Source: Balneola sp.
GTDB taxonomy: Bacteria > Bacteroidota > Rhodothermia > Balneolales > Balneolaceae
Direction: 5' to 3'
NCBI GenBank assembly: GCA_002696035.1
Contig: NZQV01000010.1
Span: 434,001 to 498,000 of the forward strand
DNA length: 64,000 nucleotides
In this document: in pieces, positions 1 to 4,716 of the stretch
Numbering within the stretch: the stretch's first letter is position 1
How the letters are laid out: every line of letters starts with the position of its first letter
Notes under the pieces: generated by a model
Seen by the model: only the letters and a program-made list of their open reading frames with translations
Database searches by the model: none
What the model was told of the DNA's origin: nothing
Position numbers and translations under genes: made by a program

Positions 1-207
1 GGAAATTCTAACGCTGTTCAACTCTCTGATACAGAATCAAAGGTGTTAAAATTGCTGGCTGAGGGAGACTCCTACAAAGGAATTTCAAAGAAAGTCTTTC
101 TGTCAGTTGATGGCGTCCGGTACCATATCCGTAATATTTATACTAAACTTGAAGTAAGTAATAAAAGCGAGGCGGTGGCTAAGGCCCTTCGCAACAAATT
201 GATATGA
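1..207 (+). CDS. LuxR/NarL-type response regulator, C-terminal part (5' end outside window)
   Basis: The window begins inside this gene. The visible 68 codons end in TGA and encode a complete LuxR/NarL-type DNA-binding helix-turn-helix domain (LSDTE, then KLLAEG, then FLSVDGVRYHIRNIY and KLEV). The receiver domain must lie upstream. The same block recurs almost unchanged in the regulator at 3907-4551, which shares FLSVDGVR, HIRNIY and KLEV, so the two are close paralogues and may recognise similar DNA. The stop codon lies only 13 bases before the first copy of an 18-bp palindromic motif. The family assignment is secure; which kinase it pairs with cannot be seen. Confidence 0.9.
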   Translation, partial: GNSNAVQLSDTESKVLKLLAEGDSYKGISKKVFLSVDGVRYHIRNIYTKLEVSNKSEAVAKALRNKLI

Positions 208-220
208 GGTAGTCCAAATT

Positions 221-267
221 ACCGCATGATCATGTAGTGATTCTAAGACGAGGTTTGATCATATTCA
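221..267 (+). promoter_or_regulatory. Palindromic operator copy 1 plus -7-like box
   Basis: The motif ACCGCATGATCATGTAGT (221-238) matches the consensus ACCRCATAnnTATGTAGT formed by the four copies in this locus, and its core CATGATCATG is a perfect palindrome. An AT-rich box CATATTCA starts at 260, 21 bases after the motif, the same spacing as in the other three copies. It is the most divergent copy of both motif and box. It would drive the segment that ends at the terminator 358-393. Binding by one of the two LuxR-type regulators is an inference. Confidence 0.45.
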
Positions 268-271
268 AATG

Positions 272-393
272 TATCAAACAATCATCGTGGTTTGGGTTTT
301 TTGGGGTATAATATTCAAACCTGGATGTGTTTATTTTACTAACACTATAGAACTGCTAAAAGATCTGACCGTGAATGGTTAGATCTTTTTTTA
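272..393 (+). ncRNA. Possible short transcript between operator copy 1 and a terminator
   Basis: The 323-base gap 208-530 holds no recognised gene. If operator/promoter copy 1 is active, transcription would start near 270 and stop at the terminator 358-393, giving an RNA of about 120 bases. It contains GGTTTG and CAAACC arms that could form a stem around 291-331. A 37-codon frame (ATG at 269, stop at 380-382) with a hydrophobic start is present but begins at the predicted transcription start and ends inside the terminator, so it may be chance. The remainder of the gap (394-456) shows nothing else recognisable. Confidence 0.25.
358..393 (+). terminator. Intrinsic terminator
   Basis: AAAGATCT and AGATCTTT form an 8-bp stem that continues, after a G-T pair, with ACC/GGT around a GTGAAT loop, and is followed directly by a run of seven or more T on the plus strand. 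This is a strong Rho-independent terminator. It ends either the upstream regulator transcript or a separate short RNA from operator copy 1. Confidence 0.85.
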
Positions 394-456
394 TACCTGC
401 CTGTGTCAGATGACGAGACTGCTTTAAATTTCTCCTGATAGTAGTGCAATCATTTT

Positions 457-503
457 ACGGCATAACTATGTAGTGTAAGTGACAAATAATTTTTTTATAT
501 AAG
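457..503 (+). promoter_or_regulatory. Palindromic operator copy 2 plus -7-like box
   Basis: The motif ACGGCATAACTATGTAGT (457-474) agrees at 15 of 18 positions with the copy at 3835. After a 21-base spacer comes TATATAAG (496-503). The start codon of the next gene is at 531, so a transcript starting near 508 would have a leader of about 23 bases. The position just upstream of the gene and the fixed spacing support a regulated promoter; the binding protein is inferred. Confidence 0.55.
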
Positions 504-530
504 AAACAGACCAAAAATTTAACAAATCGG

Positions 531-920
531 GTGACTATGGCTGATCAAAAAATTCCACATAAACATACGCTGAGACTACGAAAGTTTACTCATCAGAAAT
601 TACAATATATGTTAATGGATGATCTGGGAGACTCAAATACATACACAGATGTAAATAATGATGATGAGATCAAAATTGAAGCAGCTCACAATTATATCAC
701 CATCAGGTATGAATATAAAAATAAGCATTCCGATGGATTCAGCATTATTGAGCTAACCGGCAGTATTCGGCTTATTGGGTACAATTTCAGGATGGAAAGA
801 GTGAAAGGGACTTTGTGGTGTATAAATGTCTTTAAGATCGAGAAAGGATCAAAAGAAGAATCTGAAGAACTTTCAGAACACGATACAGATATAGAACCAC
901 CTGTTAATAATCTCCCTTAA
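531..920 (+). CDS. Unknown 129-residue protein of the two-component locus
   Basis: I do not recognise this protein. It starts with GTG at 531; an ATG six bases downstream (537) is an equally good start, and no clear ribosome binding site decides between them. The product has no signal peptide or membrane segment. Its first half is mixed basic and acidic (KHTLRLRKFTH), the middle looks beta-rich (NYITIRYEYKN, FSIIELTGSIRLIGYNF), and the tail is acidic and rich in Glu and Pro. It lies 57 bases downstream of operator copy 2 and 24 bases before the histidine kinase gene in the same direction, so it is probably the first gene of that operon and may be an accessory or sensor-modulating protein. Confidence 0.6.
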   Translation: MTMADQKIPHKHTLRLRKFTHQKLQYMLMDDLGDSNTYTDVNNDDEIKIEAAHNYITIRYEYKNKHSDGFSIIELTGSIRLIGYNFRMERVKGTLWCINVFKIEKGSKEESEELSEHDTDIEPPVNNLP

Positions 921-944
921 AATGCAGATATATTCTATTTCTTT

Positions 945-3824
945 GTGAAGTATTTAGTCGTTTTTTTAGGGATGATAGTTACCGGCTTTTCACCGGTTCT
1001 TGCTCAGACATTTCATGGCTTTCCTCTGATCGAAAATTATTCACCTGAAGAGTACAATGGAAGTGTTCAGAACTGGGCATTTTCGGAAGACTCAAATGGT
1101 GTTTTATTTCTCTCAAATGTACAGGTCATAAAAAAGTATGATGGGGTGAACTGGCTCCCCATAAATGTGCCTAACAGCCGTACCTATTCCATCCATAGTG
1201 CTGCAGATGGACGATTATATGTTGGAGGAGTAAATGAAATTGGATATCTGGATGCACCAACGGATAGTTCCACCGCAATCGAACAGTATTATTCCCTCAG
1301 GTACCTTATTCCTGATTCTATAGAGTTCGGACGAGTTTTTGATGTCACCTCTGCAGGGAACGATATATACTTTCAGTCGAATGAGATCTTAATTCGCTAT
1401 GACGGATCTGAAGTCGATTATTTTGAGCCCAGTGTTCGCTTTTCTTCAACCTTCAATAAAGATGGAGTCATTTATGTTCGGGAGGCTTTGGAAGGCATAA
1501 AAGAAGTTACAGAAGACTCCCTTATTCTTATTCCGCGAGGAGACTATTTTGCCGAGAAAAACCTGATCAGTTATCTAAAAGTTCAAAATAAAGATGTGTT
1601 CTGTGCATACAATAAATGTGCAGAGTACAGAGACAATGAATTCTTAGAACTGGATATGGAAGTAGATTCATATTTGTCAGAATTTTATATGGATGAGGCT
1701 ATTGTTTTACAGGATGAAAGTATTGTTTTTGCGACAAGGCTCGGAGGAATTGTCCATACAAATAGTAAGGGAGATATACTCAACATTATCACTGAAGAGA
1801 CAGGGCTGATCAGTAATACCGTTTATGGTGTTTATGAAGACCGATATGGGAGTGTTTGGGCGGCAACAATCAATGGACTGTCCAGAATAGATTTTGGGCT
1901 GCCCCTTCGTGTTTTTGATGAACGCTCCGGTATTAATGAAGGTATTATGTCTGTAAGTAAGTATAACGACAAACTTGTTTTTGGTTCGTCAACTGCTGTA
2001 TATCATACTGACCGATCAGGATCGATCCAAAAATTTACTATGGGGGGAATATGTTCTGATTTAAAAGTGTTCTCATCGAAATTATTTGCGGCTTGTGCGG
2101 AAAGAATGTACGCCTATAATGGCTCGGATTATGATATGATAAGTGTCCCGGGGACTTATAAGATGGCTCTCTATGATGATCCCAATATGGTGGTGATGAG
2201 TAGTTCTCAAGGATTTTATGTAGGTACATTAGACGGAGATCAATTTGAGCAATTATATGCAATTGAGAATCTCTCCTCAGTGCCCACATCTTTGCTTGTG
2301 GATGCAGCAAAGAACGTATGGGTCAGCACAAAGATAGGAGTATATCGCGTCGTTCTTGAGTGGGAGGGAGACCGAGTTACCGGACATACTGTTGAACAAT
2401 ATCTGGTTGACCAGATCAACATCAGCGATGACAAAAGAACCAATGTAACGCAATTACAAGGGGAGCCAGCTTTCCTGACATGGGGGAAAGGAATACAGCG
2501 TTTTGATGAAAAAACAGGGTCGATGTATCAGGAAATGAATTTGCCCCAAATGTTTACCGATACCACTCGACAATATTATTTTGCAAATGAAGATGCAGAG
2601 GGCAATATATGGTTGCGGTCCGGAGGAGATTATCAGGGAGCCCTAAAGAATGAGGAAGGAAGCTACCAGGTTTTGGAAGGCCCGCTTAAGCTGGTAGATT
2701 ATAATCAAAATAATCTGATATTTACTGGAGATGATGATCACGTTTGGTATGGTACTGAACAAGGCGCAATACGTTATTCCAAGAACCATAATTTCGACCA
2801 TACCGCTTCTTATCATACACAGATCAACGAGGTATTGGTCAGAAATGATTCTTTGATCAATGGAGGCCAAACAGAAGAAGCCCCGGTTTTGAAATACATG
2901 AACAATGAACTGCGGTTTACATACGCGGCAGCAAGTTATTTTGCTCCGGAAGAGACCGAATACCGGGTTAAACTTTCCGGCTTTGACGAAGACTGGAGTA
3001 TCTGGAGTTCAGAGGCTCAAAAGGATTACACCAACATTCCTGAAGGAAGTTATAGCTTTGCTGTTCAAGCCAGAAACGTATTTGGCGTAATGAGCGAATC
3101 AGAAATATTTGAATTTAAAATTTTGCCCCCATGGTACCGGACCTGGTGGGCGTATTTGTTGTATAGCCTTACAATTGCAGGGATCTTATATACAGCGTAC
3201 CGAATTCGGGTTAACCAGTTGCTAAGAGTAGAACGAATCCGGAATAATATTGCAAGTGATCTCCATGACGAAGTGAGTGCTACTTTATCAAGTATAAGCT
3301 ATTTTGCCCAGGCCATACAAAGTGATAAAGTAACCGGAGATAAAAACCGATTTGTACGTTTAATTGCAGACAGTGCCGGTGATGCAAAAGAAAAGATCAC
3401 CGATATTGTATGGGCGATTAACCCTGAGCACGACGACTGGACCGGCTTTCTTTCCAAATGTCGCCGTTATGCCTCCGACTTACTCGAAAGCAAGAATATA
3501 AGCTATAGCCTTAAGATTACAGAACACATTCCTGGAAAATTAGACATGCAGCTGCGTCAACATTTGTGGCTAATATTTAAAGAGATGGTAACGAATGCGG
3601 CCCGCCATTCTGAGGCAAATAATCTGGATATCATCATAAAATTTAAAGACGGAATGTTCTCGTTAGTGGTACAGGATGATGGAACCGGAATGGATGTAGA
3701 TGGAGTTAAAAAAGGAAATGGTTTGATCAATATTAATAAGAGAGCTGAACTCATTGGAGCAGAAGTTGACCTGAGAACATCTGAAGGTTTTGGAACCCGC
3801 TGGAAGCTTAATGTGCGGGTTTAG
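945..3824 (+). CDS. Two-component-regulator-propeller sensor histidine kinase (NarX/HisKA_3 type)
   Basis: This 959-residue membrane kinase starts at GTG 945. Residues 1-20 form a signal peptide. A periplasmic seven-bladed propeller type region (two-component regulator propeller repeats such as DRYGSVWAATINGLSRI) covers roughly 25-640 and is followed by a Y_Y_Y domain (YRVKLSGFDEDW, about 665-725). A single transmembrane helix lies near 733-755. The cytoplasmic part has a HisKA_3 dimerisation domain with the phospho-acceptor His774 in SDLHDEVS, and a HATPase_c domain with the N box near Asn884 and glycine motifs QDDGTGMD and GNGLININ. It has no fused receiver or DNA-binding domain, unlike the hybrid propeller sensors of Bacteroides, so it should phosphorylate a separate LuxR-type regulator; the one encoded directly downstream at 3907 is the obvious partner. 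The ligand is unknown. Confidence 0.93.
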   Translation: MKYLVVFLGMIVTGFSPVLAQTFHGFPLIENYSPEEYNGSVQNWAFSEDSNGVLFLSNVQVIKKYDGVNWLPINVPNSRTYSIHSAADGRLYVGGVNEIGYLDAPTDSSTAIEQYYSLRYLIPDSIEFGRVFDVTSAGNDIYFQSNEILIRYDGSEVDYFEPSVRFSSTFNKDGVIYVREALEGIKEVTEDSLILIPRGDYFAEKNLISYLKVQNKDVFCAYNKCAEYRDNEFLELDMEVDSYLSEFYMDEAIVLQDESIVFATRLGGIVHTNSKGDILNIITEETGLISNTVYGVYEDRYGSVWAATINGLSRIDFGLPLRVFDERSGINEGIMSVSKYNDKLVFGSSTAVYHTDRSGSIQKFTMGGICSDLKVFSSKLFAACAERMYAYNGSDYDMISVPGTYKMALYDDPNMVVMSSSQGFYVGTLDGDQFEQLYAIENLSSVPTSLLVDAAKNVWVSTKIGVYRVVLEWEGDRVTGHTVEQYLVDQINISDDKRTNVTQLQGEPAFLTWGKGIQRFDEKTGSMYQEMNLPQMFTDTTRQYYFANEDAEGNIWLRSGGDYQGALKNEEGSYQVLEGPLKLVDYNQNNLIFTGDDDHVWYGTEQGAIRYSKNHNFDHTASYHTQINEVLVRNDSLINGGQTEEAPVLKYMNNELRFTYAAASYFAPEETEYRVKLSGFDEDWSIWSSEAQKDYTNIPEGSYSFAVQARNVFGVMSESEIFEFKILPPWYRTWWAYLLYSLTIAGILYTAYRIRVNQLLRVERIRNNIASDLHDEVSATLSSISYFAQAIQSDKVTGDKNRFVRLIADSAGDAKEKITDIVWAINPEHDDWTGFLSKCRRYASDLLESKNISYSLKITEHIPGKLDMQLRQHLWLIFKEMVTNAARHSEANNLDIIIKFKDGMFSLVVQDDGTGMDVDGVKKGNGLININKRAELIGAEVDLRTSEGFGTRWKLNVRV

Positions 3825-3834
3825 TGAAACTAAA

Positions 3835-3881
3835 ACCACATACCTATGTAGTTTGATTTATGAGATTACTGTCTATATTTA
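3835..3881 (+). promoter_or_regulatory. Palindromic operator copy 3 plus -33/-7-like boxes
   Basis: ACCACATACCTATGTAGT (3835-3852) is a near-perfect inverted repeat (ACCACATA, two bases, TATGTAGT). TTTG overlaps its right end (3852-3855) and TATATTTA starts at 3874, 21 bases after the motif, resembling the Bacteroidota TTTG / TAnnTTTG promoter. The response regulator start is at 3907, about 54 bases after the motif. This is the expected layout for autoregulation of the regulator gene. Confidence 0.6.
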
Positions 3882-3906
3882 ATTGTGAAACATTAACTTA
3901 GTGTGA

Positions 3907-4551
3907 GTGATTGTGATTAAAGTTGGGATCATAGAAGACAATGAGTACATGAGAGAGGGTTGGGAAACCTTTATAGATTATGAAGATGATCTTACCGTGA
4001 TCGGGAGTTTTGGCTCTTGTGAAGAGGCTTTTGAATCGGAAGAAATAAATAAGGTAGATCTGGTGATCATGGATATAGGACTTCCTGGTATGACAGGAAT
4101 TGAAGGGGTTAAGTATATGCGGGAACATCACCCGGATGTCAATATTATCATGGCAACCGTTCATGATGATGATGACCATATATTTGATGCTTTAAAAGCG
4201 GGTGCGGTTGGGTATCTGATGAAAAAAGTCACTCCTGATGAAATGGTAGAAGCTATTCGCAATGCACAGGATGGAGGCTCCCCGATCACCCCAAACATAG
4301 CCCGAAAAGTGATAGCTACTTTTCAGAAAGCTGCCGACCTGGAAGAAGAACTCAGCGAACGTGAAATTCAGATACTGAAAGAACTCGCAACCGGCAGGTC
4401 GTATGCAGCCATAGGCAAGAAAATATTCTTATCGGTTGATGGAGTTCGGCATCATATCCGAAATATCTATCAGAAACTGGAAGTTCACACAAGATCTGAA
4501 GCAATTGCAAAGGGGATTAATCAGCGCCTGATAAACCCAAATAGCGATTAA
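3907..4551 (+). CDS. LuxR/NarL-family response regulator
   Basis: This 214-residue cytoplasmic regulator has an N-terminal receiver domain (about 1-125) with acidic pocket residues Glu10 and Asp11, the phospho-acceptor Asp56 in DLVIMDIGLPG, Thr84 and Lys106, followed by a LuxR-type helix-turn-helix (about 145-210, LSEREIQILKELATG then FLSVDGVRHHIRNIY). GTG at 3907 is used as the start; GTG at 3913 is an alternative that would remove two residues. It lies downstream of the propeller kinase with its own operator/promoter copy between them. Its DNA-binding domain is very similar to the cut-off regulator at position 1, which makes a shared operator sequence plausible. Confidence 0.95.
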   Translation: MIVIKVGIIEDNEYMREGWETFIDYEDDLTVIGSFGSCEEAFESEEINKVDLVIMDIGLPGMTGIEGVKYMREHHPDVNIIMATVHDDDDHIFDALKAGAVGYLMKKVTPDEMVEAIRNAQDGGSPITPNIARKVIATFQKAADLEEELSEREIQILKELATGRSYAAIGKKIFLSVDGVRHHIRNIYQKLEVHTRSEAIAKGINQRLINPNSD

Positions 4552-4592
4552 TTTTCAGCAAAATGCAGCTTTTGTAGGGATAATTCATAAAA

Positions 4593-4639
4593 ACCACATA
4601 GGTATGTGGTTGCATTCCCTGAAGCACATTTTATATTAC
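4593..4639 (+). promoter_or_regulatory. Palindromic operator copy 4 plus -33/-7-like boxes, no gene downstream
   Basis: ACCACATAGGTATGTGGT (4593-4610) is a perfect inverted repeat of ACCACATA around GG. TTG overlaps its right end (4610-4612) and TATATTA begins at 4632, again after 21 bases. The only thing downstream before the terminator 4681-4716 is about 40 bases without an open frame, so this promoter would make a short noncoding RNA. Confidence 0.55.
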
Positions 4640-4643
4640 CAAT

Positions 4644-4716
4644 AGTTAGTCCTTCCAGACTTAACTAACCTAATAAACACAAACCCTGTCTTTTTGATAA
4701 AGGCAGGGTTTTTTAT
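4644..4716 (+). ncRNA. Candidate small RNA driven by operator copy 4
   Basis: The predicted transcription start lies about 7 bases after the TATATTA box and the RNA would end in the terminator 4681-4716, giving roughly 70 bases. The segment contains no ATG or GTG-started reading frame. Its position directly after the response regulator mirrors the candidate after the regulator at the window start. The existence of the RNA is inferred from promoter and terminator only. Confidence 0.35.
4681..4716 (+). terminator. Intrinsic terminator
   Basis: AAACCCTG pairs with CAGGGTTT, and the stem extends through a T-G pair and CTTT/AAAG around a TTGAT loop, giving about 13 base pairs followed by TTTTTTATTTT on the plus strand. 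It closes the two-component locus. Confidence 0.88.

Follow-up and report, generated by a model that had tools for sequence, protein, structure and literature searches.

In streptococci, a single response regulator, that of the CiaRH system, drives several csRNA genes (PMC3091779). The two-component locus described here lies in the first part of the window (the whole 64,000-nucleotide stretch of Balneola sp. DNA that was analysed, G000:C14:434001-498000, within a 3.97-Mb draft genome) and shares with CiaRH the construction of its candidate small RNA genes, each of which is intergenic and consists of an operator-promoter followed by a terminator. However, CiaR is an OmpR-type regulator, whereas the regulator RR2 of our locus has a LuxR-type HTH, so the locus cannot be identified as a CiaRH system; it also differs in phylum, promoter type and RNA families, and its sensor is exchanged between species. 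A LuxR-type regulator, a palindromic site and activation of small RNAs are features in common with the GacS/GacA-RsmY/Z (BarA/UvrY-Csr) pathway (PMC3171408), but no CsrA was found here, so that the criterion of CsrA/RsmA titration is not met, and our RNAs lack the repeated GGA-loop design; many protein targets are also predicted. In its RNA output the locus resembles the CiaRH/csRNA and GacA-type systems but belongs to neither.

On the sensor side, the nearest parallel is ComQXPA (PMC4008528), in which a small gene lies beside the kinase and co-varies with its sensor half, while the kinase and regulator stay constant and alleles cross species borders. Unlike ComQXPA, the present locus has no recognised ComQ-like processing enzyme, and a large periplasmic propeller serves as its sensor; in addition, no ligand has been shown, and the output includes small RNAs. 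The kinase architecture itself is already known: the domain order of the sensor kinase HK2 (Reg_prop, Y_Y_Y, HisKA_3, HATPase_c) is that of the Bacteroidota Reg_prop/Y_Y_Y hybrid two-component sensors, although HK2 is encoded with a separate LuxR-type regulator, no sugar-utilisation locus was seen, and a swapped sensor with a small partner protein and a small RNA output sets it apart from them. We did not find this combination of features described in the literature that we searched.

Layout of the locus and geometry of the operator

The gene order is TPR-type histidine kinase HK1, RR1, sRNA1, a small orphan protein, HK2, RR2 and sRNA2, and the nearest named relatives are Gracilimonas (one record 86% identical in RR2) and other Balneolaceae, which makes a Gracilimonas-like member of Balneolota the most likely source. 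Within the window the features are as follows.

1..207, + strand: C-terminal end (HTH) of RR1 (Pfam GerE/Response_reg); full 208-aa gene at G000:C14:433581-434207
221..238, + strand: operator copy 1, ACCGCATGATCATGTAGT, before sRNA1; syntenic in five genus members
260..267, + strand: AT-rich box of copy 1, CATATTCA, with TA at +23 instead of +21; based on sequence and orthologues
271..395, + strand: sRNA1 candidate, core GGTTTGGGTTTTTYGGGG, intrinsic terminator at ~357-392; 5' end not fixed exactly
457..474, + strand: operator copy 2, ACGGCATAACTATGTAGT, upstream of the small protein-HK2 operon; marks the left edge of the cassette exchanged in relatives
496..503, + strand: -7-like box of copy 2, TATATAAG, from sequence
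537..920, + strand: small orphan protein, hypervariable, 127 aa; start ATG 537, with GTG 531 also possible
945..3824, + strand: HK2 sensor kinase, 959 aa (Pfam Reg_prop / Y_Y_Y / HisKA_3 / HATPase_c)
~945-2860, + strand: propeller part of HK2, corresponding to the exchanged half
3835..3852, + strand: operator copy 3, ACCACATACCTATGTAGT, RR2 promoter
3874..3881, + strand: -7 box of copy 3, TATATTTA, 21 nt past the operator
3907..4551, + strand: RR2, NarL/LuxR-type response regulator (Pfam, orthologues); presumed activator
4593..4610, + strand: operator copy 4, ACCACATAGGTATGTGGT, before sRNA2
4632..4639, + strand: -7 box of copy 4, TATATTAC, 21 nt past the operator
4642..4714, + strand: sRNA2 candidate, ~72 nt, intrinsic terminator at 4681-4711

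The interval 238-457 is where four relatives in the genus carry a gene for a 1900-aa protein; this gene is absent from the window's genome, leaving sRNA1 and the HK2 operon as direct neighbours.

The 18-bp palindrome that the initial annotation placed at 221, 457, 3835 and 4593 was recovered at all four positions. Its supposed confinement to the locus holds within the window, where a scan allowing up to 3 mismatches returned 7 strand-hits, all at these sites (0.57 expected; maximum of 3 in 100 shuffles), but not beyond it: weaker sites occur elsewhere in the genome. The locus itself includes a fifth site just outside the window, before RR1, which has the variant sequence ACCGCCGATTCGGGTAGT followed by 21 nt and TATATA. 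A box does begin 21 nt past every copy, as had been claimed, but its TA falls at +21 in copies 2-4 only, and orthologues of copy 1 deviate as well.

The spacing, whose loss in relatives would have counted against the initial annotation, is kept. A site with 0-1 mismatches lies upstream of RR2 in 26/30 orthologues, and in 24/30, drawn from several families of the order, the TA stands exactly at +21 (binomial probability ~3e-19, at a rough chance of 0.1 per locus and ignoring shared ancestry). Across 14 related loci, TANNTT was counted 19 times at offset 21; no other offset (0-33) had more than 5. At copy 1 and at the HK2-operon site the spacing is looser in relatives.

The box resembles TAnnTTTG, the published -7 element of flavobacteria, which was mapped in Flavobacterium at -12 to -5 (PMC9723704). 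If transcription starts are placed as they are there, the palindrome spans ~-51 to -34 with its centre near -42. A site centred near -42 has the geometry of a class II activator. The criterion for a class II promoter, a site near -41.5 fixed relative to the core promoter, is met, with the reservation that the start sites are predicted from the Flavobacterium work (PMC9723704) and unmapped.

Both RR1 and RR2 qualify as NarL/FixJ-type regulators, each with a receiver and a LuxR-type (GerE) HTH scoring above the Pfam cut-off. The two LuxR-type domains had been called nearly identical, which is true of their recognition helices, almost identical, but not of the regulators, which are 56% identical overall; likewise, positions 1-207 do encode such a domain, but as the last part of a full-length response regulator of 208 aa. 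Regulators of this type bind as dimers to inverted repeats, and the locus does contain palindromic sites. From sequence, without binding data, we infer that the palindrome is a putative RR2 binding site. RR1 probably binds it too, again without binding data; the two regulators have their recognition helix in common.

The centre near -42, upstream of the -7 box, argues for activation over repression, although the direction of the effect is itself inferred. Could the regulator instead block RNA polymerase from a palindrome overlapping the -33 region, giving negative feedback? The end of the site at ~-34 would allow overlap with a -33 element, autorepression is generally common, and our promoter scan does not cover this promoter type. 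However, base-exact spacing fits contact with polymerase rather than a block, since a repressor site would be free to slide, and small RNAs and surface genes controlled by response regulators are usually activated, as in CiaRH (PMC3091779). We therefore regard repression as unlikely and retain activation from a class II site as our reading.

Some further features of these promoters were noted. At the RR1 and 1900-aa gene promoters (L046-L050), two kinds of operator half-site are seen, CAT..ATG and CCT..AGG, and the operator of the 1900-aa gene is a hybrid of both, which might reflect mixed binding by RR1 and RR2. In family f3 (L028-L032), the RR2 leaders are long (~170-200 nt) and contain a repeated hairpin of the CCGGTGC...GCACCGG type between promoter and gene.

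Candidate small RNAs and predicted regulon

Two operator copies had been said to lead to terminator-ended segments, and both segments proved to be conserved candidate small RNAs. The first part of sRNA2 is a 5' hairpin with a CUUCCA loop, followed by a ACUAACCUAA linker and an intrinsic terminator; it contains no AUG. Besides being conserved across seven genomes, sRNA2 folds more stably than shuffled sequences (z -5.1) and shows compensatory changes, chiefly in the terminator stem. Its model, R1, scored 80-96 bits solely in genomes with RR2, the next score being 38 bits. Weak R1 matches in many genomes (<39 bits) were discounted as probably terminators, except for one in G021 that is syntenic.

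For sRNA1, alignments revealed a near-invariant core, and the fold z is -3.7. Among genus members with RR2, five scored 111-145 bits with its model, R2, and a sixth gave a weak match in the right place; segments similar to sRNA1 follow operators in G033 and G018. High scores for the RNA models were limited to genomes with RR2. A third candidate, sRNA3, lies under the same operator in five genus members and was not found in the window's genome; its neighbour looks, by sequence, like the end of an ssb gene. The layout of a small RNA regulon is met, in that sRNA1, sRNA2 and the sRNA3 of relatives each have an operator-promoter and a terminator, although transcripts have not been shown. Searches of Rfam gave no match for the window segments. 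Neither Hfq nor CsrA was found in the studied genome, and CsrA titration was dropped as a role for the RNAs because CsrA was not found there.

A ACTAACCTAA-like linker before the terminator (window 4661-4672 and 337-346) is common to sRNA1 and sRNA2 in relatives, and the GTTAGT of sRNA2 could pair with it. In G031, G033 and G018 (L054, L055, L057), the stretch from the RR2 promoter to the RR2 gene contains a GTCCTTC element and a terminator-like hairpin, so attenuation of the RR2 transcript may be what yields the small RNA in these genomes.

Searches for the regulon were pattern-based (motif, 21 nt and box), and counts take in both strands of the palindromic site. The motif alone was uninformative without the box, with 17 genome-wide matches at 2 mismatches vs 14 for the control. 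Operator-box pairs numbered 7-17 per genome in six genus members with RR2 and 0-3 in four without it, the reversed-pattern control also giving 0-3. Random occurrence across genomes, which would have undermined the initial annotation, can thus be set aside: the excess over the control is confined to genomes with RR2. Sites recur upstream of RR1; of the 1900-aa T9SS protein (Por_Secre_tail); of an 805/771-aa protein that has a DUF5723 partner and is orthologous between G000 and G001; of a 169-aa T9SS protein paired with an S74 protein (for the 169-aa partner, G000 and G001 are 69% identical); and of a PEGA/FG-GAP operon. Apart from the small RNAs, the predicted targets comprise both two-component pairs and proteins that are secreted or on the surface. 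Single, non-recurrent sites elsewhere are candidates only.

Hypervariability of the HK2 sensor and the neighbouring small protein

In two close species, G001 and G007, the DNA is 90-99% identical over nearly all of the region; the similarity ends at the first bases past operator 2 and resumes shortly ahead of the Y_Y_Y domain of HK2. RR2 is 100% identical between the two, the HK2 kinase domain 98-99%, RR1 98% and the HK1 sensor 99%; the beta-propeller of HK2 is 30-39% identical (the range depending on the domain cut) and the small protein ~24%. As a control, six other shared Y_Y_Y proteins are 92-99% identical in the same part. A second pair, G031 and ih13, gave corresponding values of 89 for the kinase and 32 for the sensor.

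In the tree of kinase and RR2, the genus forms one clade (99/97). In the sensor tree, G001 groups with G031, G025 and ih13, with G005 and G007 apart from it, and G000 and G004 lie near G026 and G013. A single genus clade was rejected for the sensors (AU p 9e-5; group fixed by taxonomy, long branches present), and well-supported sensor groups are common to different genera. Sensor and small protein evolve smoothly in family f3; swapping is therefore not universal. No close second (silent) copy of the sensor was found in the genus, the weak matches looking like other Reg_prop proteins.

Several of the genomes are drafts, and secreted domains evolve fast, so that the divergence might reflect an assembly or binning artefact, or one fast-evolving gene without exchange. 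That account is very hard to reconcile with sharp edges at functional borders, intact open reading frames, the repetition of the pattern in G031 vs ih13 and the well-supported sensor groups that cross genera, and we give it almost no weight beside exchange of the sensor half.

A 1900-aa T9SS protein is encoded divergently beside the cassette (L047:5399-11101 and orthologues L048-L050). Its N-terminal ~300 aa are polymorphic, at 49-61% between G001 and G007 against 94-100% for the rest, and its N-terminal alleles, alike in G004 and G007, are not in step with those of the sensor.

With kinase and RR2 similarity removed, similarity of the small protein tracks that of the sensor (partial Mantel r 0.77, p 0.0005, 20 genomes; 0.54, p 0.0005, in 13 genomes of one family), and across genera this co-variation runs against the species tree. 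As a tendency, the C-terminal tail of the small protein goes with the sensor group: GH(I/V)CxP...C in group II, an HP motif in group III and, as a looser match, acidic tails with prolines in group I; ih13 has a group III tail, though its sensor falls beside group II. We take the small gene to be coding, because dN is below dS in the less divergent pairs of relatives. No credible match to the small protein was found in Pfam or NCBIfam, and AlphaFold gave no usable model for two of the small proteins (mean pLDDT 31 and 49). A signal peptide is apparent in some alleles only, and the half without an obvious one fits poorly with a ligand of a periplasmic sensor.

Of the features of pherotype systems (ComQXPA, agr type), one is present: the small gene and the sensor are linked and vary together, while kinase and regulator are constant. 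For another, a secreted peptide that derives from the small gene and activates its own sensor, the evidence is limited to signal peptides in some alleles. By analogy with pherotype systems, the cassette has the appearance of a ligand and receptor that diversify through exchange, and the joint swap of sensor and small protein appears to be the pattern expected of a self-recognition or private-signal system. In the absence of ligand data, we infer that the small protein, or its product, is the partner or ligand of the HK2 propeller. It is still possible that the operator circuit stands as described while the sensor half adapts to environmental ligands such as glycans, the small protein being an accessory. 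Reg_prop/Y_Y_Y kinases of gut Bacteroidota are reported to sense polysaccharides (PMC3243724), and the small proteins without a signal peptide would be accommodated. However, other Y_Y_Y sensors are invariant between the same genomes, the small protein varies with the sensor, and no sugar-utilisation genes were seen in the locus. We hold this alternative to be a real possibility that falls somewhat short of an even chance, and continue with the small protein as a recognition partner of HK2.

Proposed circuit and its meaning

Conservation, spacing, co-occurrence, RNA conservation, cassette exchange and co-variation were computed. Together with inferred binding, activation, RNA function and ligand role, they lead us to consider it likely that the locus is a self-activating two-component circuit: its operator would be of class II, its outputs fixed, and its input an exchangeable cassette of small protein and sensor. 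Phosphorylated RR2 would act as a class II activator from the palindrome directly upstream of the -7 box, switching on RR1, the small protein-HK2 operon and RR2 itself; its predicted outputs are the small RNAs, of which there are two here and three in relatives, and, at other places in the genome, proteins that are secreted or on the surface. The cassette, made up of the HK2 sensor half and the small protein and bounded by the operator and the Y_Y_Y domain, differs from one close species to another, whereas the kinase, the regulator, the operators and the small RNAs do not change, so that a lineage-specific signal may feed a conserved output. More tentatively, and with somewhat less than even confidence, we propose that this is a new polymorphic, pherotype-like recognition system in Balneolota, whose cassette, directly beside a conserved operator, is swapped as a unit across species and genera and drives small RNAs and T9SS surface proteins.

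Regulation in Balneolota is nearly unstudied, and in our literature search no work turned up on either small RNAs or a polymorphic sensor of the group. Three small RNA families would come from the locus, in a genus whose studied genome has no detectable Hfq or CsrA, along with a clean test case for how a Bacteroidota-type promoter is activated. Allele-specific tests are direct where two close species differ in their alleles. If the reading of the cassette is true, the system would be the Gram-negative equivalent of a pherotype system, assembled from different components.
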